This document shows, piece after piece, positions 36,846 through 51,994 of a DNA stretch of 64,000 nucleotides. This DNA is from Arhodomonas aquaeolei DSM 8974. Lineage in GTDB: Bacteria; Pseudomonadota; Gammaproteobacteria; Nitrococcales; Nitrococcaceae. The stretch covers positions 1 to 64,000 of the forward strand of contig NZ_KB894815.1 in assembly GCF_000374645.1 (NCBI RefSeq), read 5' to 3'. Positions within the stretch are counted from its first letter, which is position 1, and each line of letters begins with the position of its first letter. The notes beneath the pieces were generated by a model, which worked only from the letters and a program-made list of their open reading frames with translations, did not search any database and had not been told where the DNA came from. A program made the translations under genes and the position numbers.

Positions 36846-37802
36846 ATGCGCGGCGGCCGGTTTCTGTTGCTCGGGGTGGTGGCGCTGATCGCGCTCATGC
36901 CCCTGTTCGCGCCCTGGAGCAAGACCTTCCTGGTGCTGGCGATCGCCAAAGGGCTCGCGGTGCTCGGCATCGTGGTGCTGCTGCGTGCCGGCCAGGTCTC
37001 CTTCGGGCACGCCCTGTTCTTCGCGGCCAGCGCCTACGTGGCGGCCTTCGCCGCGCGGCTGCTCGGTGGCGGCGAGCTGCTCACCCTGCTGGTGATCGGC
37101 GCCCTCGGCAGCGGCGTGCTGGGCCTGCTGGTCGGGCTGTTCGTGGTGCGCTACCGCTACATCTTCTTCGGCATGCTCAACCTGGCGTTCTCCATGGTTT
37201 TCTACGCCGTGCTGGAGAAGTTCTACCACTACACCGGCGGCAGCGACGGGCTGATCCTCTCGCGTCCGAGCGTGCTCGGCATCGGCCTGGAGCGGCTGCC
37301 CTTCGAGTACACGCTGTTCTACGTCGCCCTGGCGACGGCGGCTGTGCTCGGCTGGCTGGTGCACCGCTACCTCAACTCGGCACCGGGCCGGGCCCTGGCG
37401 GCGATCAAGACCAACGAGACCCGCCTGGAGTACCTGGGCATCTCGGCGCGGGGCACGCTGCTGGTGGCCTACGTGATCTCGGCGATGCTCGCCGGCGTGG
37501 GCGGCACCCTGGCGGCGGTCATGCAGGGCCTGGTGACGCCGGAGTATGCCTACTGGGTGCGCTCCGGGGAGTTCGTGTTCATCGCCATCCTCGGCGGGGC
37601 CGGCCACGTGCTGGGCGCGTTCGCCGGGGCGCTGGTCTACGAGGGCGTGCGCATGTACCTCGCCGTGCTCGCCGCGGACATGTGGCAGCTGCTGCTGGGC
37701 GTGGTCCTGCTGGTGATCGTGCTGTTCGCCTCCGAGGGGCTCGTCGGCCTGTGGCACCGGATATCCGGCCGGTTCGCGCCGGCGGGGAGGGAGGCATCAT
37801 GA
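36846..37802 (+). CDS. livM: Branched-chain-type ABC permease, LivM-like
   Basis: A 318-residue permease. The characteristic LNSAPGRALAAIKTNETRLE with YLGISARGTLLVAYVISA is the cytoplasmic loop that docks the ATPase subunits, followed by GVGGTLAAVMQGLVTPEYAY. Its stop overlaps the next ATG (ATGA). Confidence 0.92.
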   Translation: MRGGRFLLLGVVALIALMPLFAPWSKTFLVLAIAKGLAVLGIVVLLRAGQVSFGHALFFAASAYVAAFAARLLGGGELLTLLVIGALGSGVLGLLVGLFVVRYRYIFFGMLNLAFSMVFYAVLEKFYHYTGGSDGLILSRPSVLGIGLERLPFEYTLFYVALATAAVLGWLVHRYLNSAPGRALAAIKTNETRLEYLGISARGTLLVAYVISAMLAGVGGTLAAVMQGLVTPEYAYWVRSGEFVFIAILGGAGHVLGAFAGALVYEGVRMYLAVLAADMWQLLLGVVLLVIVLFASEGLVGLWHRISGRFAPAGREAS

Positions 37803-38542
37803 GCCAGGCACTCATCGAGGCCCGTGACCTGCACATCGAGTTCGGCGGGGTGAAGGCCGCCGACGGCGTGGACCTGTCGGTCCACGAGTCAGACCATCTC
37901 GCGATCATCGGCCCCAACGGGGCGGGCAAGACCACGTTCCTCAATATCTGCACCGGCTACCTGCGGCCCAAGTCCGGGACGGTGCGCTTCGACGGCACCG
38001 AGATCACCGGGCGCAGCCCGCGCTGGATCACCCGGCGCGGCATCGCCCGGGCGTTCCAGATCCCGCAGCTGTTCCTCGAGCACACGGTGATCGAGAACAT
38101 GCTCATCGGCGCCGCCGCCCGGGACCGGGTGCGCTCGCTGTGGCGGCCGCTGTCCGCGTCCACAGCCCGCGACGAGATGATGGAGCTGCTCGAGCTCATG
38201 GGCGTGGCGGACGTCGCCGCCCAGGTGGTCACCGCGCTGCCGGAGGGCCAGCGCAAGCTCATCGACATCGCCCTGGCGCTGGCGCTCAAGCCGCGGGTGC
38301 TGCTGATGGACGAGCCCACCAGCGGGGTGAGCTCCCAGGAGAAGTTCCAGGTGATGGACACCCTGCTGCGGGTGCTCGCCCACCAGCAGGTCACGGCGGT
38401 GTTCGTCGAGCACGACATGGAGATGGTGGAGCGCTACGCCGAGCGGGTGGCGGTCTGGGACGCCGGGCGCATCCGTATCGAGGGGACGCCCGCCGAGGTG
38501 CTCGCCGACGCCGGCGTGCAACGCGACGTGATTGGGTTGTAG
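37799..38542 (+). CDS. livG: ABC importer ATPase, LivG-like
   Basis: A 247-residue ATPase. Walker A GPNGAGKT near 40-47, Q-loop FQIPQL, Walker B VLLMDEPTSGVS, H-loop FVEHDME. The signature reads ALPEGQRK instead of LSGGQ, common in LivG-type subunits. Overlaps livM by four bases. Confidence 0.92.
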   Translation: MSQALIEARDLHIEFGGVKAADGVDLSVHESDHLAIIGPNGAGKTTFLNICTGYLRPKSGTVRFDGTEITGRSPRWITRRGIARAFQIPQLFLEHTVIENMLIGAAARDRVRSLWRPLSASTARDEMMELLELMGVADVAAQVVTALPEGQRKLIDIALALALKPRVLLMDEPTSGVSSQEKFQVMDTLLRVLAHQQVTAVFVEHDMEMVERYAERVAVWDAGRIRIEGTPAEVLADAGVQRDVIGL

Positions 38543-38544
38543 CC

Positions 38545-39249
38545 ATGCTGCGATTTGAAGGCATCAATGCGCGTATCCAGGGGGTGCCCGTCCTGCGCGA
38601 CGTGGACTTCACCCTCGAGCCCGGGGCGACCGTGGCGCTGATCGGGCGCAACGGCGCGGGCAAGACCACGACCCTGCGCACGGTCATGGGGTTCATCGCC
38701 CCGGACAGCGGCTCGCTGTATCTCGGCGATCGCTGCATCGACGACATCCCCGCCCACGCCCGGCCTGGTCTGGGGATCGGCTACGCCCCCGAGGACCGGC
38801 GGCTGTTCTCCGCGTTCAACGTGCGCGAGAACATCCTGCTGCCGGCCCGCGCCGCGCGGGTGGCACCGGAGGAGATCCGGCGCCGGCTGGACGGGGTCTA
38901 CGAGATCCTCCCGGAGCTCCGGGACATGGCCGAGCGCCCCGGCGGCACGGTCAGCGGCGGCCAGGGCAAGATGGTCGCCCTCGGCCGGGCGCTGATGATC
39001 GGCACCCGGGTCGTGCTCCTCGACGAGCCCTTCCAGGGCCTCGCCCCGGCACTGGCCAACCGTTACGCGGAGGCGCTGCGCACCCTGCGCGAGCGTGACC
39101 GAGACATCACCCTGGTGATCACCGAATCGAACCCGGCGCTGTTGCGGCAGTTCGCCGACCGGACACTCGTCATAGAGCGCGGCGAGGTGAGCGAGGGCAG
39201 CCTGGAGCGCAGCCACGCGGACGCCGCCACACAGGAGGAGATTTCATGA
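38545..39249 (+). CDS. livF: ABC importer ATPase, LivF-like
   Basis: A 234-residue ATPase. Walker A GRNGAGKTT, PEDRRLFSAFNVRENILLPA, signature TVSGGQGKMVALGRAL, Walker B VVLLDEPFQGLAP. The H-loop position carries ITES rather than an H-containing FVEH motif, so the switch histidine seems missing, as in asymmetric ABC pairs. Overlaps the aldehyde dehydrogenase gene by four bases. Confidence 0.88.
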   Translation: MLRFEGINARIQGVPVLRDVDFTLEPGATVALIGRNGAGKTTTLRTVMGFIAPDSGSLYLGDRCIDDIPAHARPGLGIGYAPEDRRLFSAFNVRENILLPARAARVAPEEIRRRLDGVYEILPELRDMAERPGGTVSGGQGKMVALGRALMIGTRVVLLDEPFQGLAPALANRYAEALRTLRERDRDITLVITESNPALLRQFADRTLVIERGEVSEGSLERSHADAATQEEIS

Positions 39250-40721
39250 CCCGCACGAAGCTCGACATCTCGCCGGACGGCGAAGCGGTCACGATCCTGA
39301 TCGACAACCAGTGGCGCGCCGCCGCCGGTGGTGGCGCGGTCGCCGTGCACGCGCCCTCGGACGACGGTGCGTTCGCGCAGATCGCCCGCGGCGGTGCCGC
39401 CGAGGTGGACGAGGCCGTCGCCGCCGCCCGTCACGCCTTCGAGGAGGGCGAGTGGGGCCGGCTCACCGCCATCGAGCGCGGCCGGCTGCTGATGCGCGTC
39501 GGCGAGCTGATCCAGGCCAACGCCGAGGAGCTCGCCCAGCTCGAGAGCCGGGACACCGGCAAGCCGCTGAGCCAGGGCCGCGCGGACATGGTCGCCGCGG
39601 CGCGCTACTTCGAGTACTACGGCTCGGCGGCGGACAAGGTCCACGGCGAGACCATCCCGTTCCTCGACGGCTACACGGTGATGGCCCTGCGCGAGCCCTT
39701 TGGCGTGACCGGTCACATCATTCCGTGGAACTACCCGGCGCAGATGTTCGGGCGCTCGCTCGCGCCCTCGCTGGCGATGGGCAACGCCACCGTGCTCAAG
39801 CCCGCCGAGGAGGCCTGCCTGCTGCCGCTGCGCATCGCCGACCTCGCCATCGAGGCGGGCTTCCCGCCGGGGGCCATCAACGTGGTCACCGGCCTCGGCG
39901 AGGAGGCCGGCGCGCCGCTGGCCTCCCACCCGGATATCGACTTCCTCGCCTTCACCGGCTCCCCGGAGGTGGGGACGCTGGTCCAGCAGGCGGCGGCGCG
40001 CAATCACGTCGGCTGCGTGCTGGAGCTCGGCGGCAAGTCGCCGCAGATCGTCTTCGACGACGCCGACTTCGACGCCGTGCTGCCGGTGGTGCAGAAGGCC
40101 ATCGTCCAGAACGCCGGCCAGACCTGCTCCGCCGGCAGCCGGGTGCTGGTGCAGGAGAGCGTTTTCGACGCCTTCATCGAGCGCCTGACCGCCGCCTTCG
40201 GCGAGCTGGTCACCGCCAGCCACGACGCGGACGCGAACTGTGGGCCGCTGGTCAGTCGCGCCCAGCAGCAGCGGGTGCAGCGCATGCTCGCCGACGCGGA
40301 GGCGGACGGCGTGCCGGTGATCGCCCGCGGGCGCATCGCCGAAGGCACGCCGGAGCAAGGTTACTACGTCGCGCCGACGCTGCTCGGGCCGGTGCCGCGG
40401 GAGCACACCATCGCCCGTGAGGAGGTGTTCGGGCCGGTGCTCTGCGCCATTCCCTTCCGCGACGAGGCGGACGCCGTCGCCCTGGCCAACGGCACCGACT
40501 ACGGCCTGGTCGCGGGCATCTGGACCCGCGACGGAGCCCGCCAGATGCGCATGGCGCGGCGGGTGCGCGCGGGGCAGGTCTTCGTCAACGGCTACGGCGC
40601 CGGCGGCGGCATCGAGTTGCCCTTCGGTGGCATGAAGAAGAGCGGCCACGGGCGCGAGAAGGGCTTCGAGGCGCTGCGCGAGTTCTCGGTGGTCAAGACC
40701 GTCGTGCTCAACCATGGCTGA
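39246..40721 (+). CDS. NAD(P)-dependent aldehyde dehydrogenase
   Basis: A 491-residue enzyme with all catalytic parts: GHIIPWNYPAQMFGRSLAPS, NVVTGLG, TGSPEVGTLVQQAA, LELGGKSPQIVFDDAD (Glu), NAGQTCSAGSRV (nucleophile Cys) and EEVFGPVL. Oxidises an aldehyde, substrate unknown; resembles betaine-aldehyde-type enzymes in general layout. ATGA overlap with livF ties it to uptake. Confidence 0.93.
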   Translation: MTRTKLDISPDGEAVTILIDNQWRAAAGGGAVAVHAPSDDGAFAQIARGGAAEVDEAVAAARHAFEEGEWGRLTAIERGRLLMRVGELIQANAEELAQLESRDTGKPLSQGRADMVAAARYFEYYGSAADKVHGETIPFLDGYTVMALREPFGVTGHIIPWNYPAQMFGRSLAPSLAMGNATVLKPAEEACLLPLRIADLAIEAGFPPGAINVVTGLGEEAGAPLASHPDIDFLAFTGSPEVGTLVQQAAARNHVGCVLELGGKSPQIVFDDADFDAVLPVVQKAIVQNAGQTCSAGSRVLVQESVFDAFIERLTAAFGELVTASHDADANCGPLVSRAQQQRVQRMLADAEADGVPVIARGRIAEGTPEQGYYVAPTLLGPVPREHTIAREEVFGPVLCAIPFRDEADAVALANGTDYGLVAGIWTRDGARQMRMARRVRAGQVFVNGYGAGGGIELPFGGMKKSGHGREKGFEALREFSVVKTVVLNHG

Positions 40722-40736
40722 TGCGACGGCAATCGG

Positions 40737-40850
40737 AGCGCGCGGGTGGGAGGGTCCCGCCGGGACCGTCTGCGGCCATGGATGGCCGCAGTCGAGCGTA
40801 CAGGGAGGTGTTCACAGCGTGTCCCGGCGGGATCCTCTCACCCCGCGCGG
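40737..40850 (+). repeat. Large stem-loop repeat, copy A
   Basis: Outer arms of about 26-30 bases (40739-40766 and 40821-40850, sharing TCCCGCCGGGAC) enclose a 62-base core (40763-40824) that contains an inner hairpin, CTGCGGCCAT / ATGGCCGCAG type, and the segment GAGCGTACAGGGAGGTGTTC. The same core recurs inverted at 41685-41746. Lies between the aldehyde dehydrogenase and SDR genes. Confidence 0.85.
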
Positions 40851-40899: not shown

Positions 40900-41649
40900 A
40901 TGAGGATGAAGGACAGGATCGCGGTGGTCACGGGCGCGGCGTCGGGTTTCGGCGCGGAGATCGCCCGGGTGTTCGCCCGCGAGGGCGCGAAGGTGGTGGT
41001 CGCCGACCTCAACGAGGAGGGCGCGAAGGCCGTCGCCGCCGAGATCGGCGACAGCGCCATCGGCGTGCGCGCCGACGTCGCTAACCGCACCGACGTGAAG
41101 GCGATGATCGACACCGCCGTCGAGCGCTTCGGCGGCTTCGACACCATCGTCAACAACGCCGGCTTCACCCACGTGAACCAGCCGATGATGGACGTCACCG
41201 AGGAGGACTTCGACCGCTGCTACTCGGTCAACGTGAAGTCCATCTACCTGGCCGCCCTCGAGGCGGTGCCGCACTTGCGCAAGCGCGGCGGCGGCAACAT
41301 TATCAATATCGCCTCGACCGCCGGTGTCCGGCCGCGCCCTGGGCTGACTTGGTACAACGGCAGCAAGGGCGCGGCCATCGTCACCAGCAAGTCCATGGCC
41401 GTTGAGCTGGGCCCGGAGAACATCCGGGTCAACGCCATCTGCCCCGTGATCGGCGAGACCGGGATGCTCGAGCGCTTCATGGGCGTGCCGGACACCCCGG
41501 AGAACCGCAAGAAGTTCCTCGCCACCATCCCCCTCGGGCGCATGTCTCGCCCCGCCGATGTGGCCAACGCCGCGCTCTACCTCGCCAGCGACGAGGCCGA
41601 GTTCATCAGCGGCGTGGCACTGGAGGTGGATGGGGCGCGCTGCGTGTGA
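40900..41649 (+). CDS. Short-chain dehydrogenase/reductase
   Basis: A 249-residue SDR: cofactor loop TGAASGFGAEIARVF, VADLNEEG (Asp favours NAD), NNAGFTH, Ser-Tyr-Lys triad in NIASTAGVRPRPG and TWYNGSKGAA, and PVIGETGMLERF. Likely oxidises a hydroxyl group of the substrate ahead of the aldehyde dehydrogenase. GAGGAG precedes ATG 40900. The gene is bracketed by inverted copies of a 62-base repeat. Confidence 0.92.
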   Translation: MRMKDRIAVVTGAASGFGAEIARVFAREGAKVVVADLNEEGAKAVAAEIGDSAIGVRADVANRTDVKAMIDTAVERFGGFDTIVNNAGFTHVNQPMMDVTEEDFDRCYSVNVKSIYLAALEAVPHLRKRGGGNIINIASTAGVRPRPGLTWYNGSKGAAIVTSKSMAVELGPENIRVNAICPVIGETGMLERFMGVPDTPENRKKFLATIPLGRMSRPADVANAALYLASDEAEFISGVALEVDGARCV

Positions 41650-41663
41650 GCGCCGCGCGGTTC

Positions 41664-41770
41664 GGGGAGGGACGGTGCGGCGGCGGACACGCCGTGAATA
41701 CCTCCCTGTACGCTTGACTACGGCCATCCCCGGCCGCAGTCGGTCCGCCGCCGCACCGTCGTCCCTCCCC
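41664..41770 (-). repeat. Large stem-loop repeat, copy B (inverted relative to copy A)
   Basis: Outer arms GACGGTGCGGCGGCGGAC (41671-41688) and the perfect complement at 41743-41760, extended by GGGGAGG / CCTCCCC. The 62-base core at 41685-41746, read on the minus strand, matches copy A at about 55 of 62 positions, whereas the stems differ in sequence. Placed between the SDR and the SdhA-type gene. Confidence 0.85.
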
Positions 41771-41829: not shown

Positions 41830-43620
41830 ATGTCCGCCGAGCCGACCATTGAGCACAACCACGACGTGGTGGTCGTTGGCGCCGGAGGCGCCGGCCTCCG
41901 GGCCACCCTGGGCATGGCCGCCCAGGGGCTAGACACTGCCTGCGTGACCAAGGTCTTCCCGACCCGCAGCCACACCGTGGCCGCCCAGGGCGGCATCGCC
42001 GCGGCGCTGGGCAACATGGATGAGGACGACTGGCGCTGGCACGCCTACGACACCATCAAAGGCTCCGACTGGCTGGGTGACCAGGACGCCATCGCCGCCA
42101 TGTGCGAGGCGGCGCCGGCGGCGATCACCGAGCTCGAGCACTTCGGGGTGCCGTTCTCGCGCACCGGCGACGGCCGGGTCTATCAGCGGCCCCTGGGCGG
42201 GCACAGCACCCGCTTCGGGGAGGGCCGCGCCAACCGCGCCTGCGCCGCCGCCGACCGCACCGGCCACGCCATCCTGCACACCCTCTACCAGCAGTCGCTC
42301 CGGCACCGGGCGGAGTTCCACATCGAGTTCTTCGCCATCGACCTGATCATGGACGGCGACGGTGCCTGCCGCGGCGTCGTCGCCCTGGAGCTCGCCACCG
42401 GCCGCGTCCACCGCTTCCGCGCGCGCATCACCGTGCTCGCCACCGGGGGCTACGGGCGTGCGTACTTCTCGTGCACCTCCGCGCACACCTGCACCGGCGA
42501 CGGCGCGGGCATGGCCCTGCGCGCCGGGCTGCCGCTGCAGGACATGGAGTTCGTGCAGTTCCACCCCACCGGTATCTACGGCTCCGGGTGTCTGATCACC
42601 GAGGGCGTGCGCGGCGAGGGCGGCTACCTCACCAACGCCGACGGCGACCGGTTCATGGAGCGCTACGCGCCCAACGCCAGGGACCTCGCCTCCCGCGATG
42701 TGGTCAGCCGTGCGATGACCGTGGAGATGCGCGAGGGCCGGGGGGTCGGCGAGCGCGGCGATCATATCCATCTCCACCTCGCCCACCTGGGCCCGGAGGT
42801 CATCAACGAACGCCTGCCGGGGATCGTTGAGACCGCGCGTATCTTCGCCGGGATTGATGTCACCCGCGAGCCGATCCCGGTGCTGCCCACGGTCCACTAC
42901 AACATGGGCGGCATCCCCACGAACCGTCACGGCGAGGTGGTCGCCCCCCGTGACGGCGACCCGGAGGCGGTGGTCCCCGGCCTCATGGCCATCGGCGAGG
43001 CCGCCTGCGTGTCCGTGCACGGCGCCAACCGCCTGGGCTCGAACTCGCTGCTCGACCTCATTGTCTTCGGCCGCGCCGCCGCGCTTCGCGCGGCCGAGGT
43101 GCTGCGCGGCGAGGGCCCGGACCGCGGCGCTTTGCCGGCGGCGGCATCGACGCCAGCGATCGAGCGCCTGGAGCGGTTGCGTACCGCCGACGGCGAGACG
43201 CCCACCGCTCGCCTGCGCGATGGCCTGCAGCGGGACATGCAGGACTACGCGGCGGTGTTCCGCACCGGCGAGACCCTGGAGGAGGGCTGCCGCCGGATCG
43301 ACGCCCTGCTGGCGGGCTTCGCCGATGTGTCGGTCACCGACCGCGGGCGCATCTGGAACACGGACCTGATCGAGACCCTGGAGCTGGAGAACCTGCTCGG
43401 CTGCGCCGCGGCCACCGTGCACGCCGCCCGCCACCGCACCGAGAGCCGCGGCGCCCACGCCCGCGAGGACTTCCCTGATCGGAATGACACCGAGTGGATG
43501 CGTCACAGCCTCGCCTGGCTGGACGCGAACGGCGCCGTGCGCCTGGGCGAGCGCCCCGTGCGGCTGCAGACCGGCACGCCGGAGTTCGCCAGCGTCGAGC
43601 CGGTGGCCCGGGTGTACTGA
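41830..43620 (+). CDS. Succinate-dehydrogenase/fumarate-reductase-type flavoprotein (orphan SdhA paralogue)
   Basis: A 596-residue full-length SdhA-type protein. FAD loop [18 protein letters not shown], covalent-FAD His in [17 protein letters not shown], active-site residues in [45 protein letters not shown] and [15 protein letters not shown]. All key dicarboxylate-binding His/Arg are present. No iron-sulfur (SdhB) or membrane subunit is in the island, so it must work alone or borrow the respiratory partners. AAGGAG is 13 bases from the ATG. Confidence 0.88.
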
Positions 43621-43632
43621 GGAGGCAAGGCA

Positions 43633-44220
43633 ATGGACACGCAGGCGAAACGTGAGGCCCGGGTGAACGAGACCCTGGCACGGGTGCGGGCGCTGCTGCC
43701 CGGCGAGGTGCGCGAGCGCGAGCCGCTGGGCCGGGCCCTGGAGGCCCTCATCGAGCTGGCCCGCGAGCCCGCCCTGTGGGGCGAGGCGGATTTCCCCGCG
43801 CCGTCGGTGGACGAGCGCCAGGCGCGCTACCTGCTGAGCGAGGACCCGGACCGCCGCTATGCCCTCTACCTGAACGTCATGCGCCCGGGCAAGCGCATCC
43901 CGCCCCACGACCACACCACCTGGGCGTGCGTGGCCGCGGTGGAGGGCGTGGAGCACAACACCCTCTACCGCCGTCTCGACGACGGCTCGGTCGAGGGCCG
44001 TGCCCGGCTGGCCGTGCGCGAGGAGGTCGAGCTCGCCCCGGGCAAGGGTGTGGCGCTGCTCGCCGACGACATCCACTCGGTCCGGATCCCGCCGGGCGGG
44101 GTCATCCGCCACCTCCATCTCTACGGCCGTGCGCTGGAGACGCTCACCGGGCGGACGCGCTTCGATCCGGAGGCCGGTACCTGCGCGCCCATGGACATCG
44201 GCGTGCAGACCCGGCGGTGA
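43633..44220 (+). CDS. Thiol dioxygenase, cysteine-dioxygenase (CDO type I) family
   Basis: A 195-residue cupin of the CDO family. Iron ligands by position: His92, His94 (PPHDHTTWACV) and His148 (DDIHSVRIPPGG). Relatives oxidise cysteine, 3-mercaptopropionate or mercaptosuccinate to the sulfinate. The exact substrate is not readable from sequence. It begins 12 bases after the SdhA-type gene and its stop overlaps the rhodanese start (TGATG). Confidence 0.85.
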   Translation: MDTQAKREARVNETLARVRALLPGEVREREPLGRALEALIELAREPALWGEADFPAPSVDERQARYLLSEDPDRRYALYLNVMRPGKRIPPHDHTTWACVAAVEGVEHNTLYRRLDDGSVEGRARLAVREEVELAPGKGVALLADDIHSVRIPPGGVIRHLHLYGRALETLTGRTRFDPEAGTCAPMDIGVQTRR

Positions 44221-45839
44221 TGCGCATGGACACCCTCAGCCCCCGCGAGCTCAAGGCCCGGCTCGACGCCCGCGAGACGCTGGCGTTGCTGGACGTCCGC
44301 GAGCCCGGCGAGTTCGGCCTGCGCCACCCCTTCTGGGCGGTGCCCCTGCCCTACGGCCGCTTCGAGCTCGACCTGCCCCGGCTCGTCCCCGACCCCGGTG
44401 TACCGCTGGTGATCGCCGACGAGGGCGGCACAACGGCCCGGCTCGCGGTGCGCCGGGCGCGGGCGCTCGGCTATCGGCGGGTGTTCGGGCTGGAGGGAGG
44501 GCTGCGCGCCTGGCGCCGCGCCGGCTACGGCGAGTTCGCCGGGGTCCACGTGCCGAGCAAGGCCTTCGGCGAGCTGGTGGAGATGCGCCGGCACACGCCA
44601 ATGATCGACGCCGGCGAGCTGGCCGCGCGTATCGAGGAGGGCGAACGCTTCCACCTCTTCGACGCGCGGCCGCCGGCGGAATACCGGCGCATGAGCATCC
44701 CCGGGGCGCGCTGCTGTCCCAACGTGGAGCTGCCCGTGCGCCTGGAATCGCTGGTCACGGACCCCGATACCCCCATCGTGATCAACTGCGCCGGGCGTAC
44801 CCGCGGCATCATCGGCGCCCAGACGCTGATCGAGCTCGGCGTGTCCAACCCGGTCTATGCCCTGCGCAACGGCACCATGGGCTGGGAGCTCGCCGGCCTG
44901 ACCCGCGCCCACGGGGCGGAGGACGTCGTCGCCACGGACGCGCCCGCCACGCCGTCGCCGGGGCTGCGCGCGCGCATCCGCGCGCTCGCCGCCGATGCCG
45001 GCGTGAGCGCCGTCACCGCCGGTGACGTCACCGCCTGGCGGGCCGCCGGCGAGCCCGTCTACTGCCTGGACGTGCGTCAGCCCGGCGACCCCGCCGCGCC
45101 GCCCCTGCCGGGCACCGTACGTGCCCCGGGCGTGGAGCTCATCCAGGCCACCGAGGCGTGGATCGCCGTGCCCACCGCCCGGGTCGTGCTGGCGGACGAC
45201 GACGGCGTGCGCGCGCCGTTGTGCGCCTACTGGCTGCGCCTGATGGGGCTGGACGCGCGGGTGCTGCCAGTGGCGGAGACGGCGTTGCTGCCGGACGCAC
45301 CGGCGCCGGCCGCGCTGCCGGCGCTCGCCCGCTGCGAGGCGGTGGCGGCGGTCGCCGAGGATGCGGGCGGCGACGGGCCGCCGGTCCTCGACCTGCGCGG
45401 CAGTGCCGCCCACCGCCACGGCCACCCGCCGGGGGCGCGCTGGCTGACCCGCTCCCGCCTCGGCGAGTTCATCCCCGTGCTGGCGCGGGAACGCAGCGGC
45501 GTGCGCCTGCTCGCCGACGACCCGGATCGTGCCGCCCTGGTGGCGGGCGACCTCGCTGATCACGGTATCGACGGCGTCGCGCTGATCGACGGCGGCCTGG
45601 ACGCCTGGGCCGCCGCCGGCGGGCCGGTGGTGGAGACGCCGGACGAGCCGCCGGACCGGGCCTGCATCGACCGGCTGTTCTTCGTCCACGACCGCCACGA
45701 CGGCAACCTCGATGCCGCGCGCCGCTACCTGGAGTGGGAGCAGGGCCTGGTGCCGCGCCTCGACGCCGCCGAGCGGCAGGCATTCGCGCGGCTGGACCCG
45801 GCGCGCGATCCGAGGACTCATGCAGGGGAGGATCGATGA
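44220..45839 (+). CDS. Four-module rhodanese-like sulfurtransferase
   Basis: A 539-residue protein with four rhodanese-like modules (about 5-105, 115-235, 265-365, 395-475) and a helical tail. Only the second has the catalytic loop (CAGRTRG, Cys190-Gly196). In modules 1, 3 and 4 the corresponding loops (ADEGGTT, ADDDGVR, ADDPDRA) lack Cys, so they are structural. A role in handling sulfane sulfur, sulfite or thiols beside the thiol dioxygenase is likely. Start ATG 44220 or 44226. Confidence 0.88.
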   Translation: MRMDTLSPRELKARLDARETLALLDVREPGEFGLRHPFWAVPLPYGRFELDLPRLVPDPGVPLVIADEGGTTARLAVRRARALGYRRVFGLEGGLRAWRRAGYGEFAGVHVPSKAFGELVEMRRHTPMIDAGELAARIEEGERFHLFDARPPAEYRRMSIPGARCCPNVELPVRLESLVTDPDTPIVINCAGRTRGIIGAQTLIELGVSNPVYALRNGTMGWELAGLTRAHGAEDVVATDAPATPSPGLRARIRALAADAGVSAVTAGDVTAWRAAGEPVYCLDVRQPGDPAAPPLPGTVRAPGVELIQATEAWIAVPTARVVLADDDGVRAPLCAYWLRLMGLDARVLPVAETALLPDAPAPAALPALARCEAVAAVAEDAGGDGPPVLDLRGSAAHRHGHPPGARWLTRSRLGEFIPVLARERSGVRLLADDPDRAALVAGDLADHGIDGVALIDGGLDAWAAAGGPVVETPDEPPDRACIDRLFFVHDRHDGNLDAARRYLEWEQGLVPRLDAAERQAFARLDPARDPRTHAGEDR

Positions 45840-46993
45840 ACGAGCCCGACACCATCCGCGAGATACGCGACGCCGTTGCCCGTCTGTGCAGCGACTTCCC
45901 GGGCAGCTACTGGCGCGAGCTCGACGCCACCCGGGGCTATCCCGACGCGTTCGTGCGGCGGCTCACCGAGGACGGCTTCCTCGGGGCGCTGATCCCGGAG
46001 GCATACGGCGGCGCCGGGCTCGGGCTCACGGCGGCGGGCGTGATCCTCGAGGAGATCGCGCGCTCCGGCGGTCATCCCGGGGCCTGTCATGCGCAGATGT
46101 ACACCATGGGCACGCTGCTGCGCCACGGCTCGCAGGCGCAGAAGTCGGCGTACCTGCCGGGCATCGCCTCCGGCGAGCTGCGCCTGCAGGCCTTCGGTGT
46201 GACCGAGCCCGGTGCCGGCACCGAGACCACCGCGATCCGGACGTTCGCCGAGCGCCGTGGCGATCGCTACGTGATCAACGGCCAGAAGGTGTGGATCAGC
46301 CGCGTCGAGCACTCCGACCTGATGCTGCTGCTCGCGCGCACCACGCCCCGGGACCAGGTCTCGCGCAAGACCGAGGGGCTGAGCGTCTTCCTCGTCGATC
46401 TGCGCGAGGCGGCGGGCAACGGCCTCACCGTCCAGCCCATCGAGACGATGATGAACCACCACACCACGGAGCTGTTCTTCGACGACCTCTCGGTGCCCGC
46501 CGACGCGCTGATCGGCGAGGAGGGGCGCGGTTTCCGCTACATCCTCGACGGCATGAACGCCGAGCGCATCCTGATCGCTTTCGAGTGCATCGGCGATGCG
46601 CGCTTCTTCATCGAGCACGCCAGCGCCTACGCCAGCGAACGCGAGGTCTTCGGGGCGCCCATCGGGCGCAACCAGGGCGTGCAGTTCCCCATCGCCCGGG
46701 CGTACGCGGACATGCGGGCCGCCGAGCTCATGGTCCACGAGGCCGCCGGGCGGTTCGACGCGGGCGAGTCCTGCGGCGCCGAGGCCAACATGGCCAAGCT
46801 GCTCGCCGCGGACTGCTCCTGGCGGGCCGGCGATACCTGCCTGCAGACCCACGGCGGCTTCGGTTTCGCGCGCGAGTTCGACATCGAGCGCAAGCTCCGC
46901 GAGACCCGGCTCTACCAGGTCGCGCCCGTCTCCACCAATCTCATCCTCGCGTATCTCTCGGAACACGTTCTGGGGATGCCGCGGTCGTTCTGA
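45836..46993 (+). CDS. Acyl-CoA dehydrogenase-family flavoprotein
   Basis: A 385-residue acyl-CoA dehydrogenase fold: FAVTEP-like QAFGVTEPGAGTETTAIRT, ISRVEHSDLMLLLA, NHHTTELFFDDLSVPADAL, AFGxPI region REVFGAPIGRNQGVQF, and QTHGGFGF. The usual catalytic Glu in the C-terminal YEGT loop is replaced by APVST (Pro364 at that position), but Glu243 in NAERIL sits where isovaleryl- and long-chain enzymes keep theirs. It may be a dehydrogenase on a dicarboxylyl-CoA, or a desulfinase-like relative. ATGA overlap with the rhodanese gene. Confidence 0.88.
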   Translation: MNEPDTIREIRDAVARLCSDFPGSYWRELDATRGYPDAFVRRLTEDGFLGALIPEAYGGAGLGLTAAGVILEEIARSGGHPGACHAQMYTMGTLLRHGSQAQKSAYLPGIASGELRLQAFGVTEPGAGTETTAIRTFAERRGDRYVINGQKVWISRVEHSDLMLLLARTTPRDQVSRKTEGLSVFLVDLREAAGNGLTVQPIETMMNHHTTELFFDDLSVPADALIGEEGRGFRYILDGMNAERILIAFECIGDARFFIEHASAYASEREVFGAPIGRNQGVQFPIARAYADMRAAELMVHEAAGRFDAGESCGAEANMAKLLAADCSWRAGDTCLQTHGGFGFAREFDIERKLRETRLYQVAPVSTNLILAYLSEHVLGMPRSF

Positions 46994-47003
46994 AGGAGTC
47001 ACC

Positions 47004-48137
47004 ATGGATACGCAGGCCCAGGACAAGCCGCTCGCTGGCTCGCTGGTCGTCTCGCTGGAGCAGGCGGTCGCCGCGCCGGTGTGCACCGCCCGGCTGGCCA
47101 ATGCCGGCGCCCGGGTGATCAAGATAGAGCGCCCCGAGGGCGACTTCGCCCGGGGCTACGACGAATACGTCAAGGGCGAGGCCACCTACTTCGTATGGGC
47201 CAACCACGGCAAGGAGTCGGTGTGCCTGGACCTGCGCGACGACGCCGACCGCGCCGTCTTCGAGGGCCTGCTGGAGCGCGCCGACGTGTTCGTGCAGAAC
47301 CTCTCGGTCGGCGCGATCGACCGCCTCGGCTACGGCTGGGAGGCGCTCAACGCCCGTTTCCCCCGGCTGATCGTCTGCGGCATCTCGGGCTACGGCGAGG
47401 ACAACGCCTACGCCAGCATGCGCGCCTACGACATGCTCATCCAGGCGGAGAGCGGGCTCTCCAGCATCAGCGGGCGCGGGCGCATCGGCGTGTCCATCGC
47501 CGACATCGTCACCGGCATCAACGCCTACGGCGCCATCCTGGAGGCGCTGATCCGCCGTGAGCGCACCGGCGAGGGCGAGCGCCTGGGGGCGTCGCTGTTC
47601 TCCAGCATGGCCGACCTCATGGCCGTGCCGCTGCTCCAGACCCGCTACGCCGGGGAGGCGCCGGCGTACATGGGCATGCGCCACCCCTCCATCGTGCCCT
47701 ACGGGGCGTTCCCCACCGCCGACGGCACGGAGGTGGTGATCTCGATCCAGAACGAGCGGGAATGGGAGCGGCTGTGCCGGGACGTGCTCGGGCGCCCGGA
47801 TCTGTTCGAGGAGCCTGCCTTCGCCAGCATCGCCCGGCGTACCGCCGAGCGCGAGCGGGTCGAGGCGGCCGTCGCCGAGGCCACGGCCGCCCTGTCGGAG
47901 GCGGCGCTGATCGAGCGCCTCGACCGGGCGCGGATCGCCTACGGCAAGCTCAACGAGCCCGCCGACGTGCTGGACCACCCGGCCCTGCGCCAGGCCCATG
48001 TGGCCCTGGCCGGCGGTGCCGACGCCGAGATCCCCGCGCCGCCGGTGCAGGCCCGGTGGTACGGTGACCACCTCGGCCGTTGTCCGTCGCTGGGCGAGAA
48101 CACCGAGGCGATACGCCGGGAGTTCGGCCATGAGTGA
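47004..48137 (+). CDS. Class III CoA-transferase (CaiB/BaiF family)
   Basis: A 377-residue CoA-transferase. SLEQAVAAPVCTARLANAGA with VIKIERPEGDFARGYD at the N-terminus, VFVQNLSVGAIDRLGYG, and the region with the catalytic Asp near GYGEDNAYASMRAYDMLIQA. Adds CoA to a carboxylic acid from a donor such as succinyl-CoA. It shares an 8-base overlap with the hydratase gene. Homologous in type to itaconate CoA-transferase (Ict) and to the transferase of 3-sulfinopropionate catabolism. Confidence 0.9.
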   Translation: MDTQAQDKPLAGSLVVSLEQAVAAPVCTARLANAGARVIKIERPEGDFARGYDEYVKGEATYFVWANHGKESVCLDLRDDADRAVFEGLLERADVFVQNLSVGAIDRLGYGWEALNARFPRLIVCGISGYGEDNAYASMRAYDMLIQAESGLSSISGRGRIGVSIADIVTGINAYGAILEALIRRERTGEGERLGASLFSSMADLMAVPLLQTRYAGEAPAYMGMRHPSIVPYGAFPTADGTEVVISIQNEREWERLCRDVLGRPDLFEEPAFASIARRTAERERVEAAVAEATAALSEAALIERLDRARIAYGKLNEPADVLDHPALRQAHVALAGGADAEIPAPPVQARWYGDHLGRCPSLGENTEAIRREFGHE

Positions 48138-48966
48138 AACCGACCCGCGGGCGTGGATCGGGCGGACCCGCGAGGGTGTCGATACCGTCGACGCCTGGCG
48201 CGTCGCCGCCTTCAATGCGGCCCTGGACCGGGAGGCGTCCCTGCCCGCGGACGGCACGCCGCTGCCGCCGTGCTGGCAGTGGCTGCTGTTCCCGCCGCTC
48301 TACCGCGCCTCCGCCTCCGGTGGCGACGGTCACGAGCGCCTCGGGGCCTTCCTGCCGGCGCTGCCGGCGGGCCACCGGCGGATGTGGGCGGGCAGCCGGA
48401 TGACCATCGAGCGGCCGCTGCAGGTGGGCGAGCGGGTGCACTGCCGCTCCACCGTGGCGGAGGTGGTGCCCAAGGCGGGCCGCAGCGGGCCGCTGGTGTT
48501 CGTCACCGTCAGCCACGAGATCGAGGGCGAGCGCGGCGGGCGCATCGACGAGGCCCAGGATATCGTCTACCGCGCCCCGGCACCGGGCGGCGGGGCGGAC
48601 ACCGCCGGGAGCGACGACATGCCCGAGCCCGCGTGGCGGGCGACCTGGCGCCCCGACCCGGTGCTGCTCTTTCGCTACTCGGCGCTCACGTACAACAGCC
48701 ACCGCATCCACTACGACCGGTCCTACTGCACCGGCGTCGAGGGCTATCCGGGGCTGGTCGTCCATGGCCCCCTGATGGCGACGCTCATGCTCGACCTGGC
48801 CGTGCAGCAGCGCGGGACGCCGGTGCGCCGGTTCGAGTACCGCTCCCGCGCGCCGGTGTTCGACGACATGGCCTTCACCACCGCCGGCGTGCCCGAGGAC
48901 GACGGCGCGCGCCTGTGGGTCACCCGGCCGGACGGGGCGCTGGCGCTGACCGGCCGGGTGGAATGA
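48130..48966 (+). CDS. MaoC-like double-hotdog acyl-CoA hydratase (mesaconyl/itaconyl-CoA hydratase type)
   Basis: A 278-residue HTD2/FAS1-type dehydratase. C-terminal hotdog motif FRYSALTYNSHRIHYDRSYC followed by EGYPGLVVHGPL is diagnostic; N-terminal hotdog at about 15-145 with RMWAGSRMTI. Such enzymes hydrate itaconyl- or mesaconyl-CoA to citramalyl- or methylmalyl-CoA. Between the CoA-transferase and the CitE-type lyase. Confidence 0.88.
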   Translation: MSETDPRAWIGRTREGVDTVDAWRVAAFNAALDREASLPADGTPLPPCWQWLLFPPLYRASASGGDGHERLGAFLPALPAGHRRMWAGSRMTIERPLQVGERVHCRSTVAEVVPKAGRSGPLVFVTVSHEIEGERGGRIDEAQDIVYRAPAPGGGADTAGSDDMPEPAWRATWRPDPVLLFRYSALTYNSHRIHYDRSYCTGVEGYPGLVVHGPLMATLMLDLAVQQRGTPVRRFEYRSRAPVFDDMAFTTAGVPEDDGARLWVTRPDGALALTGRVE

Positions 48967-49060
48967 CCGCGGAGACGGGGACAGGGCGGGCGTATCGCGG
49001 CCTCACCGCCCCCGTCGCGAGCCGGGCCGCCAGAGCGCCCGGCGGAAAGGGAGGAACGAG

Positions 49061-49927
49061 ATGACGCAATGGCCCGGCTGGCGGTCGCTCCTGTTCGTGC
49101 CCGCCGACAACGAGCGCCTGCTGGAGAAGGCGGGACGGCGTGGTGCCGACGCCTGCATCCTGGATCTGGAGGACGCCGTCGCCCCCGGGCGGCGGCCGGC
49201 GGCGCGGGCCGCCCTGCCCGAGGCGGTCGCCCGGCTGGCGGCCGACGGCGTCGCCGTGCTGGTGCGCGTCAACGCCGGCACCCGGGAGCAGGTCCACGAC
49301 CTGGAGGCCGCCGTCGGGCCGTCGCTGGCGGGCATCGTGCTGCCCAAGGTCGAGCACGCCCACGAGCCCGTGGTCACCGACGGCATCCTTACCGAGCTGG
49401 AGACGGAGCGGGGGTTCGAACCGGGCGGAGTGCCGGTGATCGGCATGATCGAGAGCGCGCGGGGGCTGCTGGCCGCGGGCGGGCTGGCCGCGGCCACGCC
49501 GCGTCTCGCGGCCCTGGCCCTGGGGCCTGAGGACCTGGCCCTGGACCTGGGCGGCACGCCCGGGGCGGCGCTGCTCACCGAGCCCGCCCGCCGCGTCGCC
49601 TGGGCGGCGCGGGCCGCGGGGATCGAGGCGATCGGCTTCCCCGGCTCCATCGCCAACTACACCGATACCGGGCGCCTGAGCGCCGAGCTGGAGACGGCAC
49701 AGGGGCTCGGTTTCTCGGGGGCGCTGTGCATCCATCCCGCCCAGATCGGGCCCGTCCACGCGGCGTTCGCGGTCAGCGAGGCGGACCTGGACTGGGCGCG
49801 GCGCGTGGTCGATGCCGCCCCGGCGGATGGCGCGGTGTTCTCCGTGGACGGCCGGATGGTGGACCGCCCCGTGCTCCTGCGCGCCCGGGCGCTGCTGGCC
49901 CGCGGTGAGCGCCAGCGGGGGCGATGA
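49061..49927 (+). CDS. CitE-type lyase (citramalyl/malyl-CoA lyase family, HpcH/HpaI)
   Basis: A 288-residue TIM-barrel lyase. SLLFVPADNERLLEKA, ADACILDLEDAVAPG (metal Asp/Glu), RVNAGTR, VLPKVEHA, IGMIESARGLLAA, GPEDLALDLG and CIHPAQIGPVHAAF. Splits a beta-hydroxyacyl-CoA to acetyl-CoA or propionyl-CoA and a keto acid such as pyruvate or glyoxylate. GGGAGG lies six bases before the ATG. Last gene of the island. Confidence 0.9.
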   Translation: MTQWPGWRSLLFVPADNERLLEKAGRRGADACILDLEDAVAPGRRPAARAALPEAVARLAADGVAVLVRVNAGTREQVHDLEAAVGPSLAGIVLPKVEHAHEPVVTDGILTELETERGFEPGGVPVIGMIESARGLLAAGGLAAATPRLAALALGPEDLALDLGGTPGAALLTEPARRVAWAARAAGIEAIGFPGSIANYTDTGRLSAELETAQGLGFSGALCIHPAQIGPVHAAFAVSEADLDWARRVVDAAPADGAVFSVDGRMVDRPVLLRARALLARGERQRGR

Positions 49928-49942: not shown

Positions 49943-51271
49943 TCATGCCGGATGGGTGCCGTCCGGCAGGGTGACCACTGCCTCGACGCCGTCGGCACGG
50001 CCGGGGGCGGGGGAGTTCAGGGTCACCGAGGCCCCGGCGCCCTCGGCGATCGCCTCGACGATGGCCAGCCCGAGCCCGGTGCCGCCGGGCCGGGTCGTCC
50101 CCCGCCGGAAACGCGCCCGCAGTTGCCGGAGCGTGGTGGCGGGGATCACGGGCGAGTCGTTGATCACCCGCAGGCGCCGGGCGCCGTCCACCACCACCGC
50201 CACCCGGCTGTCCGCCGGGCTGTGGCGCAGGGCGTTCTCGATGAGGTTGCGCAGCAGGATGGCGAAGCCGTCGGGATCCAGCGCGCCGGCAAGCCGCACG
50301 CCGTCCGGTACCGTGAGTGTCACCCGATCGCCGCTGCCGGCGTGGCGACTGAACTCGTCGACCACCAGGGCGAGCACGTCGTCGAGGGGCTGGAGCGTGT
50401 CGGCGGCGAAGACCCCGGCCTCGGCGCGGGCGAGCTGCATGAGCTTCTCGGAGACCCGGGCGAGGTGACGCAGGCCGGCCTCGATGTGCCGCGCGCGCTC
50501 GCGCACGGCCGGGTCGCCGGTGTCGGCGAGCAGCCGCTGGGTATGGCCCAGGGCCCCGGCGATGGGCGTGCGCAGCTCGTGGGCGCTGTTCGCGGTGAAG
50601 CTGCGTTCCGCCGCCAGTGCGTCACGCAGCCGTGCCATCAGGCGGTTGACGGCATCCGCCAGCGGACGGATCTCCGCGGGCAGGCCGCTCGCGGTCAGTG
50701 GGGCCAGATCGCCGGGGGCGCGGCGTTCGATCTCGCCGCGCAGCGAGAGCACCGGCGCTGTGGTCCGGCGCACCAGCCACCACACGCCGAGCAGGCTCAG
50801 CGGCACCAGGAACGGCAGCGGCAGGAGCAGGCTCAGCGTCGTTTCCATCGCCGCCTCGCGGCGGTGGGCGAGGGGCTCGGCGACCTGGATGAGCAGACCG
50901 GTGTCGGCGTCGCGCTCGGTGAACACCCGGTGCGACGCGGTCGTGACGAAACCGGGCCGCAACGGTGCGGGGAAGCCGGTGTCGCGGGCATTGCGGGAGC
51001 TCAGCACCACCCGGCCGGCGGCGTCGCGGACGCGGTAGGTGAGCAGCCCCTCGCCGGCGCCGACCGTCGTCGGTTCCCTGCCGGCCGGCCCCGCGGCCCC
51101 GAGCGCGAGCAGCCGGTGTGCGGCCTGTGCCAGGGACTCGTCATAGGCCTCGTTGAGCTCGTGACGAACCAGCACCCACGACAGTGCCGTGGCTACCAGC
51201 CACAGTGTGAGCACACCGGCGGTGAGCATCCCCGCCAGACGCCGGCGCAGGCTGAAGGCCCTGCCGTTCAC
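49943..51271 (-). CDS. Sensor histidine kinase, QseC/PmrB-like
   Basis: A 442-residue kinase: membrane helix about 15-35, periplasmic sensor (35-145), second helix 146-168, HAMP (170-222), dimerisation domain with SFTANSAHELRTPIAGALGH (His231), and an ATPase domain (NLIENALRHSPAD, GTGLGLAIVEAI). GTG start overlaps the stop of the response regulator gene (GTGA). The sensed signal is unknown; see operator and targets. Confidence 0.92.
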   Translation of the reverse strand: MNGRAFSLRRRLAGMLTAGVLTLWLVATALSWVLVRHELNEAYDESLAQAAHRLLALGAAGPAGREPTTVGAGEGLLTYRVRDAAGRVVLSSRNARDTGFPAPLRPGFVTTASHRVFTERDADTGLLIQVAEPLAHRREAAMETTLSLLLPLPFLVPLSLLGVWWLVRRTTAPVLSLRGEIERRAPGDLAPLTASGLPAEIRPLADAVNRLMARLRDALAAERSFTANSAHELRTPIAGALGHTQRLLADTGDPAVRERARHIEAGLRHLARVSEKLMQLARAEAGVFAADTLQPLDDVLALVVDEFSRHAGSGDRVTLTVPDGVRLAGALDPDGFAILLRNLIENALRHSPADSRVAVVVDGARRLRVINDSPVIPATTLRQLRARFRRGTTRPGGTGLGLAIVEAIAEGAGASVTLNSPAPGRADGVEAVVTLPDGTHPA

Positions 51272-51927
51272 GAGCGCACCATCCGGTAGCCGAGGCCTCG
51301 CTCCGTGGCGATCAGGCCTGTGCCGAGCTTCTTGCGCAGCCGGCTGATGTAGACCTCGATGGTGTTGCTTTCCACCTCGGCACCGAAGGCGTAGAGCCGG
51401 TCTTCGAGCTGGCCCCGCGAGAGCACGCGCCCGCGGTTGTGCGCCAGCGCCTCCAGCAGGGCCCACTCGCGCTGGGTCAGGCGTACCGGCTCGCCATCGC
51501 GGTGGACGGTCCGCGCGGCCTCATCGATCACGACCCCCGCCACCTCGATCCGCGGTCCGGCGTCGCCGGCGCTGCGCCGGCCCACGGCGAGCACGCGGGC
51601 GGAGAGCTCGGCGAGATCGAAGGGTTTCACCAGATAGTCGTCCGCGCCGGCCCGCAGGCCGCGGATCCGGTCCGATATCTGGTCCCGGGCGGTGAGGATG
51701 ATCACCGCCAGCCGCTCGCCGCGCCCGCGCAGCTCGCCGAGCAGCGTGAGCCCGTCGCCGTCGGGCAGCATCAGGTCGAGCAGGCAGAGGTCGTAGGCCA
51801 CCGCCGCCAGGGCGGGCCGGGCCCGGCAGAGGTGATCCACCCGGTCGACGGCGTGCCCGTCGGCGGCGAGCTGATCGACGACGGCGGTGCCCAGGCTCGC
51901 GTCGTCCTCCACCAGCAGTATGCGCAT
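51268..51927 (-). CDS. OmpR/QseB-family response regulator
   Basis: A 219-residue regulator: receiver domain with phospho-acceptor Asp51 (LCLLDLMLPDGDG), VKPFDLAELSARVLA, and a winged HTH (LTQREWALLEALAHNRGRVL, SNTIEVYISRLRKKLG). Divergent from the PepSY protein gene, with a typical tandem operator between, so it likely controls PepSY and cytochrome b561 expression. AAGGGGA precedes ATG 51927. Confidence 0.93.
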   Translation of the reverse strand: MRILLVEDDASLGTAVVDQLAADGHAVDRVDHLCRARPALAAVAYDLCLLDLMLPDGDGLTLLGELRGRGERLAVIILTARDQISDRIRGLRAGADDYLVKPFDLAELSARVLAVGRRSAGDAGPRIEVAGVVIDEAARTVHRDGEPVRLTQREWALLEALAHNRGRVLSRGQLEDRLYAFGAEVESNTIEVYISRLRKKLGTGLIATERGLGYRMVRS

Positions 51928-51994
51928 GGCCGTCCCCTTCGGTGTCCGGGCGCCGATTGTAACCCGGACACCGGCTTCACGATTCGTCACCGTC

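Follow-up and report, generated by a model that had tools for sequence, protein, structure and literature searches.

At issue here is which compound is degraded by the products of seven genes on the + strand (41830-49927) of contig NZ_KB894815.1 of Arhodomonas aquaeolei DSM 8974, among which a thiol dioxygenase stands together with enzymes of coenzyme A (CoA) ester metabolism. The window, that is, the whole stretch of DNA analysed, comprises 64,000 nt of a 3.96-Mb genome in 48 contigs, and its open reading frames were named from Pfam and NCBIfam profile scans and from matches to solved structures, with some labels assigned by eye. In order, the seven genes encode a lone SdhA-type flavoprotein (41830-43620; TIGR01816 above cut-off), a 195-aa thiol dioxygenase of the mercaptosuccinate dioxygenase (MSDO) type (43633-44220), a rhodanese-repeat protein (44220-45839; Pfam Rhodanese in three stretches), an acyl-CoA dehydrogenase homologue (ACAD; 45836-46993; Pfam ACAD domains), a family III (CaiB) CoA-transferase (47004-48137; Pfam CoA_transf_3), a MaoC-type hydratase (48130-48966), and a CitE-type lyase (49061-49927). 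The last four are referred to below as the C5 module. What is proposed here, tentatively and with a probability that falls somewhat short of even, is that the operon degrades a five-carbon alpha-mercapto-dicarboxylate via methylsuccinate, for instance 2-mercapto-2-methyl- or 2-mercapto-3-methylsuccinate.

The SdhA stop codon and the dioxygenase start are 12 bp apart, the dioxygenase and rhodanese genes overlap by 1 bp (provided that the rhodanese starts at its first ATG), and the rhodanese and ACAD genes overlap by 4 bp. Further downstream, a 10-bp gap separates ACAD from CaiB, CaiB and MaoC overlap by 8 bp, and CitE follows MaoC after 94 bp. Because of this tight spacing, 41830-49927 is regarded as a single operon, and a chance pattern of reading frames is excluded since all of them are open, full-length, and of the expected families. 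A promoter and terminator scan gave no signal clearly above chance. The initial annotation of this DNA had placed the dioxygenase, rhodanese, ACAD, and CoA-transferase side by side at 43633-48137, with a hydratase and a lyase in addition; all four are found there, on the + strand, and the other two lie directly downstream.

Families of the operon proteins

The best solved relative of the dioxygenase is a mercaptosuccinate dioxygenase (PDB 8vni; E 4e-67, 59% identity), and solved cysteine (CDO) and 3-mercaptopropionate (3MDO) dioxygenases match it far worse (E 2.7e-8 or weaker). Therefore, a plain cysteine or 3-mercaptopropionate dioxygenase was rejected; the protein is of the MSDO type, with activity on mercaptosuccinate predicted. 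The initial annotation was thus right to see a CDO-like thiol dioxygenase, and the nearest solved relative acts on a dicarboxylate. The dioxygenase scores above cut-off in no Pfam or NCBIfam model. Eight residues (Arg65, His92, His94, His148, Arg159, His160, His162, and Tyr164) are invariant in all 83 aligned rows, the window's own included; they cover the three histidines that bind iron in this family and its His-His-Tyr stretch. To the other rows the dioxygenase is at most 59% identical, and it forms a deep branch, the exact position of which is unsure because the tree is a quick one with long branches. Vertical inheritance from close relatives was rejected, as matches occur in 6 of 144 relatives; this count includes the genome itself, and identity does not exceed 39% in the remaining five. 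A residue signature for a C5 substrate (Asp93 and Leu163) was considered and dropped, since loci that lack the C5 module share one or both residues.

The number of repeats in the rhodanese is probably four, and a single Cys loop (CAGRTR) is likely to form an active site; the loop and the fourth repeat were read by eye. In Variovorax and Advenella, msdo is reported to be clustered with genes for a rhodanese and a cystathionine beta-lyase, and MSDO to make sulfinosuccinate, which spontaneously yields succinate and sulfite (PMC5373536). In that description, the pathway requires neither CoA activation nor a desulfinase. Since the sulfinate product of MSDO is reported to shed sulfite spontaneously, a desulfinase would not be needed here either.

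The initial annotation had nonetheless assigned the ACAD as a sulfinyl-acyl-CoA desulfinase fed by the CaiB transferase, as in 3-mercaptopropionate breakdown by Advenella. The same three protein types are indeed adjacent, and the 3-sulfinopropionyl-CoA desulfinase model (NF042439) is the second-best NCBIfam match of the ACAD. However, the score is 207.9 bits against a cut-off of 600, two ACADs encoded elsewhere in the genome score better (279 and 243 bits), and 7 of 14 control genomes also hold ACADs that match the model below its cut-off. Above cut-off it is found in 3 of the 369 genomes of the class (the true members, L214-L216), and these genomes (G143, G145, and G265) carry a true desulfinase and a separate ACAD resembling methylsuccinyl-C4-CoA dehydrogenase (Mcd) as different genes. 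When the window ACAD is aligned with L214-L216, their Arg, Gln, and Gly correspond to a residue other than Arg, to Glu, and to Pro (numbering shifted by 1-2). Schuermann and colleagues reportedly described, in 2015, a desulfinase with Arg84 and with no catalytic base at positions 246 (Gln) and 366 (Gly), to which the aligned columns correspond. In the window ACAD, Pro occupies the JK-loop Glu position and Glu the alternative helix position. In a tree of 76 rows, the desulfinases stand apart from a 60-row group that holds the window ACAD (100/99), with a starred branch between the two. On score, active-site residues, and tree, a desulfinase role was rejected; judged by its sequence, the ACAD lies outside the desulfinase family and looks like a standard dehydrogenase, and the desulfination scheme is very improbable. 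The three protein types of a desulfinase pathway, found together, do not alone indicate desulfination. A Gln in place of the catalytic Glu was also rejected as a peculiarity of the ACAD, as that Gln occurs in ordinary dehydrogenases too. Isovaleryl-CoA dehydrogenase, a working dehydrogenase, is likewise reported to lack the usual catalytic Glu (PMC11659651).

Comparative analyses place the ACAD closer to enzymes of methylsuccinate metabolism. Its counterpart in a Cupriavidus necator SHC 2-3 cluster (L164), which also has CaiB, PrpD, CitE, and MaoC, is 68% identical. In C. necator and Pseudomonas aeruginosa, the ACAD of the itaconate/methylsuccinate cluster was shown to be an (RS)-methylsuccinyl-C4-CoA dehydrogenase (PMC12290011), and, from gene content rather than by accession, the L164 genes would correspond to E6A55_22580-22600 of the published strain. 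ACAD relatives of about 60-70% identity often lie beside MaoC, CitE, CaiB, or MmgE/PrpD, not always all of them. The nearest relatives, 80-81% identical (L114-L116, in G163, G279, and G378), have the order ACAD-CaiB-MaoC-CitE, and no MSDO lies within their 20-kb stretch. The window ACAD and these three make up one clade (100/95), which is nested within a group of 22 rows whose gene neighbours are mixed, and a 58-row supergroup (96/97) contains both the window ACAD and the Cupriavidus ACAD. The window ACAD shares the active-site motifs NAER and ETRLYQVAP with rows L164, L012, L022, L180, and L114, and it has neighbours of the Ict, Ich, and Ccl types (CaiB, MaoC, and CitE) directly downstream. 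The ACAD is thus placed in the Mcd supergroup, and dehydrogenation is its predicted reaction.

The remaining enzymes of the C5 module point in the same direction. The CaiB protein is 43% identical to the CoA-transferase adjoining the Cupriavidus ACAD and likely activates methylsuccinate or itaconate. For the MaoC enzyme, the sole two solved relatives found are itaconyl-CoA hydratase structures (8huc and 8khg; E 1e-56), and an itaconyl-/mesaconyl-C4-CoA hydratase is predicted. The best solved relatives of the CitE enzyme, 8khl and 9nzb, are labelled acyl-CoA lyase beta chain and are presumably P. aeruginosa Ccl; the enzyme is 37-42% identical to three cluster homologues in the alignment and is probably a citramalyl-CoA lyase. 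The initial annotation had expected a carbon skeleton larger than propionate, for instance of four or five carbons, and homology to itaconyl-CoA hydratase and the Pseudomonas Ccl-type lyase favours five.

The SdhA paralogue is 76% identical to a second copy in the same genome (G000:C9), which sits between open reading frames read by eye as SdhC and SdhB. What we take to be the catalytic motifs of SdhA are unchanged in the paralogue. It reads PLGGHST where the other copy has PFGGMTT, a segment presumably close to the lining of the substrate pocket. As a guess, the paralogue may serve as a reserve flavoprotein of succinate dehydrogenase, with lower sensitivity to the dicarboxylates in question.

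Linkage of the dioxygenase and the C5 module in other genomes

Genome contigs were searched for MSDO relatives; 190 were found, and the best 80, mostly betaproteobacteria by title, were kept with flanks of up to 10 kb on either side (one flank shorter than 9.9 kb in 17 of the 80). A rhodanese homologue is present in 79 of these loci, in agreement with the tie between rhodanese and dioxygenase drawn in the initial annotation, and in 65 a cystathionine beta-lyase homologue lies no more than 8 kb from MSDO and is encoded on its strand. No SdhA match was found in the flanks of any of the 80. MSDO and rhodanese are joined by all four genes of the C5 module in Acidovorax MR-S7 (L012), and by ACAD, CaiB, and CitE in Comamonas terrae (L022), where the locus ends before any MaoC. 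Elsewhere among the 80, matches are weak and single at best, for instance in L018 with a 43-44% ACAD and a 31% CaiB. ACAD matches within 8 kb of MSDO occur in 2 of 80 loci (L012 and the 43-44% match of L018), that of L022 lying just beyond 8 kb.

Additionally, a plasmid of Marinobacter sp. M3C (NZ_CP092285.1, 74828-99396; L218) carries MSDO, rhodanese, a membrane-like protein without Pfam match, and a lyase, with CaiB, MmgE/PrpD, ACAD, and MaoC on the opposite strand, and TRAP transporter genes are also present. MmgE/PrpD is likewise found in L012 and L022. The Marinobacter cluster, a full one of the methylsuccinate type, is flanked by two copies of the same IS3 transposase, and the region is a possible composite transposon. 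Among plasmid records, an MSDO-like match was found in 31, two of which were inspected, and an ACAD match in 143. The second inspected, pSR7 of Aminobacter sp. SR38 (L219), is annotated with metC-MSDO-rhodanese, followed by a branched-chain-type ABC importer and then by a DUF1989 protein, an AstE/AspA-type deacylase, a nitrilase-related hydrolase, and a molybdopterin oxidoreductase; these genes perhaps serve the breakdown of N-acylated succinocysteine. An ACAD relative (72%) lies on a different plasmid of the same strain.

At the level of whole genomes, the two proteins were counted in 349 Burkholderiales (the order of the Cupriavidus genome G427), at E <= 1e-140 for ACAD and E <= 1e-50 for MSDO. 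The Mcd-like ACAD occurs in 98 of them and MSDO in 8, all 8 with the ACAD (Fisher p 3e-5). Similarly, MSDO (E <= 1e-30) occurs in 3 of the 369 genomes of the class, all with the ACAD (p 0.004 without the window genome), the other two being of one genus and 44-45% identical; both p values ignore kinship and the large, versatile nature of such genomes. Among 30 MSDO genomes chosen from the 80 loci, the ACAD is present at E <= 1e-140 in 26 and at about 45% identity in 1, and is missing in 3. Thus, MSDO and ACAD are clearly associated by genome, and their physical linkage outside the window is rare.

A proposed serial route through methylsuccinate and its rivals

Gene order, protein families, an ACAD outside the desulfinase family, and the joint presence of both modules in a few other lineages are the direct observations; we infer every reaction taking place in this organism, which thiol is used, and that the two modules act in series. 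In the proposed route, the MSDO-type dioxygenase would oxidize the thiol to an alpha-sulfinate. Like sulfinosuccinate, for which this has been reported, the sulfinate would decompose non-enzymatically, here to methylsuccinate and sulfite, and disposal of the sulfite would be aided by the rhodanese. Methylsuccinate would be expected from a methyl-branched alpha-mercaptosuccinate because the sulfinate adjoins a carboxylate, as it does in sulfinosuccinate. CaiB would convert methylsuccinate to methylsuccinyl-C4-CoA, and the ACAD would convert this to mesaconyl-C4-CoA. The MaoC enzyme would hydrate mesaconyl-C4-CoA to citramalyl-CoA, which the CitE enzyme would cleave to acetyl-CoA and pyruvate. 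The dehydrogenase, hydratase, and lyase would make sense together, since methylsuccinate, the expected product of a C5 MSDO substrate, needs them. Formally, the candidate thiols are H2S adducts of mesaconate or citraconate.

Almost as likely as this serial route is that the two modules act in parallel on different substrates. Mercaptosuccinate (C4) would be converted by MSDO to succinate and sulfite, with succinate passing to SdhA and the tricarboxylic acid (TCA) cycle, and methylsuccinate or itaconate (C5) would separately be degraded by CaiB, ACAD, MaoC, and CitE. Both modules are known individually from published work (PMC5373536, PMC12290011), the placement of SdhA immediately ahead of MSDO is as expected with succinate as product, and each module occurs without the other: the C5 module lacks an adjacent MSDO in G163, G279, and G378, and MSDO-rhodanese lacks the C5 module in 78 of 80 loci. 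Nevertheless, two unrelated substrates would require neither the interleaved, overlapping order SdhA-MSDO-rhodanese-ACAD nor the linkage of the modules in other lineages, and a C5 substrate of MSDO would yield precisely methylsuccinate. Far less probable is a defence against itaconate, in which the thiol would be 2-(mercaptomethyl)succinate, with H2S or itaconate-alkylated cysteine as its source, and both itaconate and its thiol adducts would be detoxified by the operon. Itaconate itself alkylates cysteine. Enzymes of the Ich and Ccl types are present, and one abstract states cysteine alkylation for the octyl ester of itaconate. However, the sulfinate would in this case lie on a CH2 group, like that of 3-sulfinopropionate. 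Decomposition would then not be expected, and the itaconate-H2S adduct is therefore disfavoured; it would need a CoA desulfinase, which is absent here. The operon also has no C-S lyase, and the two best MetC-like matches of the genome share only 35% and 37% identity with the Comamonas MetC adjoining MSDO.

Several observations weigh against the serial route, beyond the kinship and genome size left out of the co-occurrence statistics. MSDO has been published as acting on mercaptosuccinate, activity on a C5 thiol is a prediction, and the alignment of MSDO rows gave no residue signature for a C5 substrate. The 22-row clade of the window ACAD (96/97) is sister to the 32-row clade of the Cupriavidus ACAD (100/98), and because of this position, with mixed neighbours, its substrate could differ. 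The CitE enzyme scores 142 bits on NF038242 (RipC_Ccl), for which the cut-off is 375, a model that may have been built on another, Yersinia-type, lyase variant. No MmgE/PrpD methylsuccinate isomerase is seen in the operon, unlike in the published cluster; three-gene versions of that cluster are described, but Mcd is missing from these as well (PMC12290011). The ALDH and SDR genes upstream (described below) and SdhA are left unaccounted for by the proposed steps. With respect to linkage, the fetched flanks of 78 of the 80 MSDO loci hold no full C5 module, and L012 and L022 (both Comamonadaceae) may represent a single event. The Marinobacter MSDO match is split over two frames, and for this reason the gene may be dead. 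Of the 8 Burkholderiales with both genes, 6 have them on separate contigs, and in the other 2 the distance between them is 87 kb and 348 kb, respectively. Plasmid records of Cupriavidus EM10 and C. campinensis hold both genes about 1 Mb apart.

Held more loosely than the serial degradation itself, and rather doubtful as a whole, is the fuller proposal of an undescribed aerobic route for branched C5 mercapto-dicarboxylates. In such a route, an MSDO taking a methyl-substituted mercaptosuccinate would feed the mesaconyl-C4-CoA route through a self-decomposing sulfinate and methylsuccinate, and the duplicated SdhA would keep the TCA cycle running despite inhibitory dicarboxylates.

Flanking genes and relation to known systems

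The genes preceding the operon on the + strand begin with a LysR-family regulator (33488-34435; Pfam HTH_1 and LysR_substrate), whose position suggests that it may regulate the operon. A putative cyclase (PF04199; 32221-33270, - strand) lies upstream of the LysR gene and is divergent from it. Next is a branched-chain-type ABC importer, consisting of a Peripla_BP_6 substrate-binding protein (34545-35867, start codon picked by eye) and of LivH (35939-36844), LivM (36846-37802), LivG (37799-38542), and LivF (38545-39249), named by eye from their translations. The closest solved chains are only weakly similar to the binding protein (best E 4e-16) and give no usable hint of its substrate. An aldehyde dehydrogenase (ALDH; 39246-40721; Pfam Aldedh) overlaps livF by 4 bp, and no NCBIfam model was above cut-off among the best 25 of 45 matched. 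It is followed by an SDR oxidoreductase (40900-41649; best solved relative 8sy8, TsaC), which gaps of about 180 bp separate from both neighbours and which is perhaps outside the core operon. The SDR gene is bracketed by 62-nt inverted repeats (40763-40824 and 41685-41746; 89% complementary, 860 nt apart), each adjoining another palindromic arm pair. A 22-base core of the repeats (up to 3 mismatches) occurs within the window at these two sites alone, and the repeats resemble a small mobile or REP-like element. Downstream, a sensor kinase (by eye) and a response regulator (49943-51990, - strand) are convergent with the operon, and beyond them, on the + strand, lie genes for a small protein that looks exported and for a cytochrome b561-like protein (by eye).

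Three described systems resemble parts of the operon. With the MSDO route of Variovorax paradoxus B4 and Advenella mimigardefordensis DPN7 (PMC5373536) it shares the dioxygenase family, an adjacent multi-repeat rhodanese, and an alpha-sulfinate predicted to decompose by itself. In contrast to that route, its dioxygenase is accompanied by a C5 CoA-ester route and an SdhA paralogue, and the same-strand cystathionine beta-lyase of typical MSDO loci (65 of 80) has no counterpart in the operon. The P. aeruginosa/C. necator cluster of Ict, Ich, Ccl, Mcd, and Msi (PMC12290011) similarly has a CoA-transferase, a MaoC, a CitE, and a related ACAD whose active-site motifs are identical; the window differs in having no MmgE/PrpD, in the MSDO and rhodanese upstream in the operon, and in an ACAD of the sister clade. 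Finally, the 3-mercaptopropionate pathway of Mdo, Act or SucCD, and the desulfinase AcdA (PMC5373536, PMC6370202) has in common a thiol dioxygenase, CoA activation, and a protein of the ACAD fold, whereas the window has an MSDO-type rather than an MDO enzyme, an ACAD outside the desulfinases, and an added hydratase and lyase.

The MSDO and methylsuccinate halves are each known. In the open-licence literature, neither their union in one operon nor a C5 thiol-acid pathway appears among the matches listed, and no paper among them joins the mercaptosuccinate and methylsuccinate/itaconate routes by title, start of abstract, or term counts, and the sole paper among these matches to name both mercaptosuccinate and methylsuccinate concerns calcium phosphate crystals. 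As to a natural role for MSDO, the cystathionine beta-lyase near it would fit a release of mercaptosuccinate from S-(2-succino)cysteine (2SC), a product of fumarate damage. The text of a paper on 2SC (PMC9706529) contains none of the terms mercaptosuccin-, thiomalate, cystathionine, dioxygenase, or beta-lyase.

Interest in polythioester production has motivated studies of how mercaptosuccinate is broken down (PMC5373536), and methylsuccinate pathways are reported to be widespread, with natural sources of methylsuccinate unclear until recently (PMC12290011). If the proposed route is correct, methylsuccinate produced from a thiol acid by such an operon would connect the turnover of organosulfur compounds with the metabolism of branched dicarboxylates, and the proposal names thiol substrates that can be synthesized and tested.

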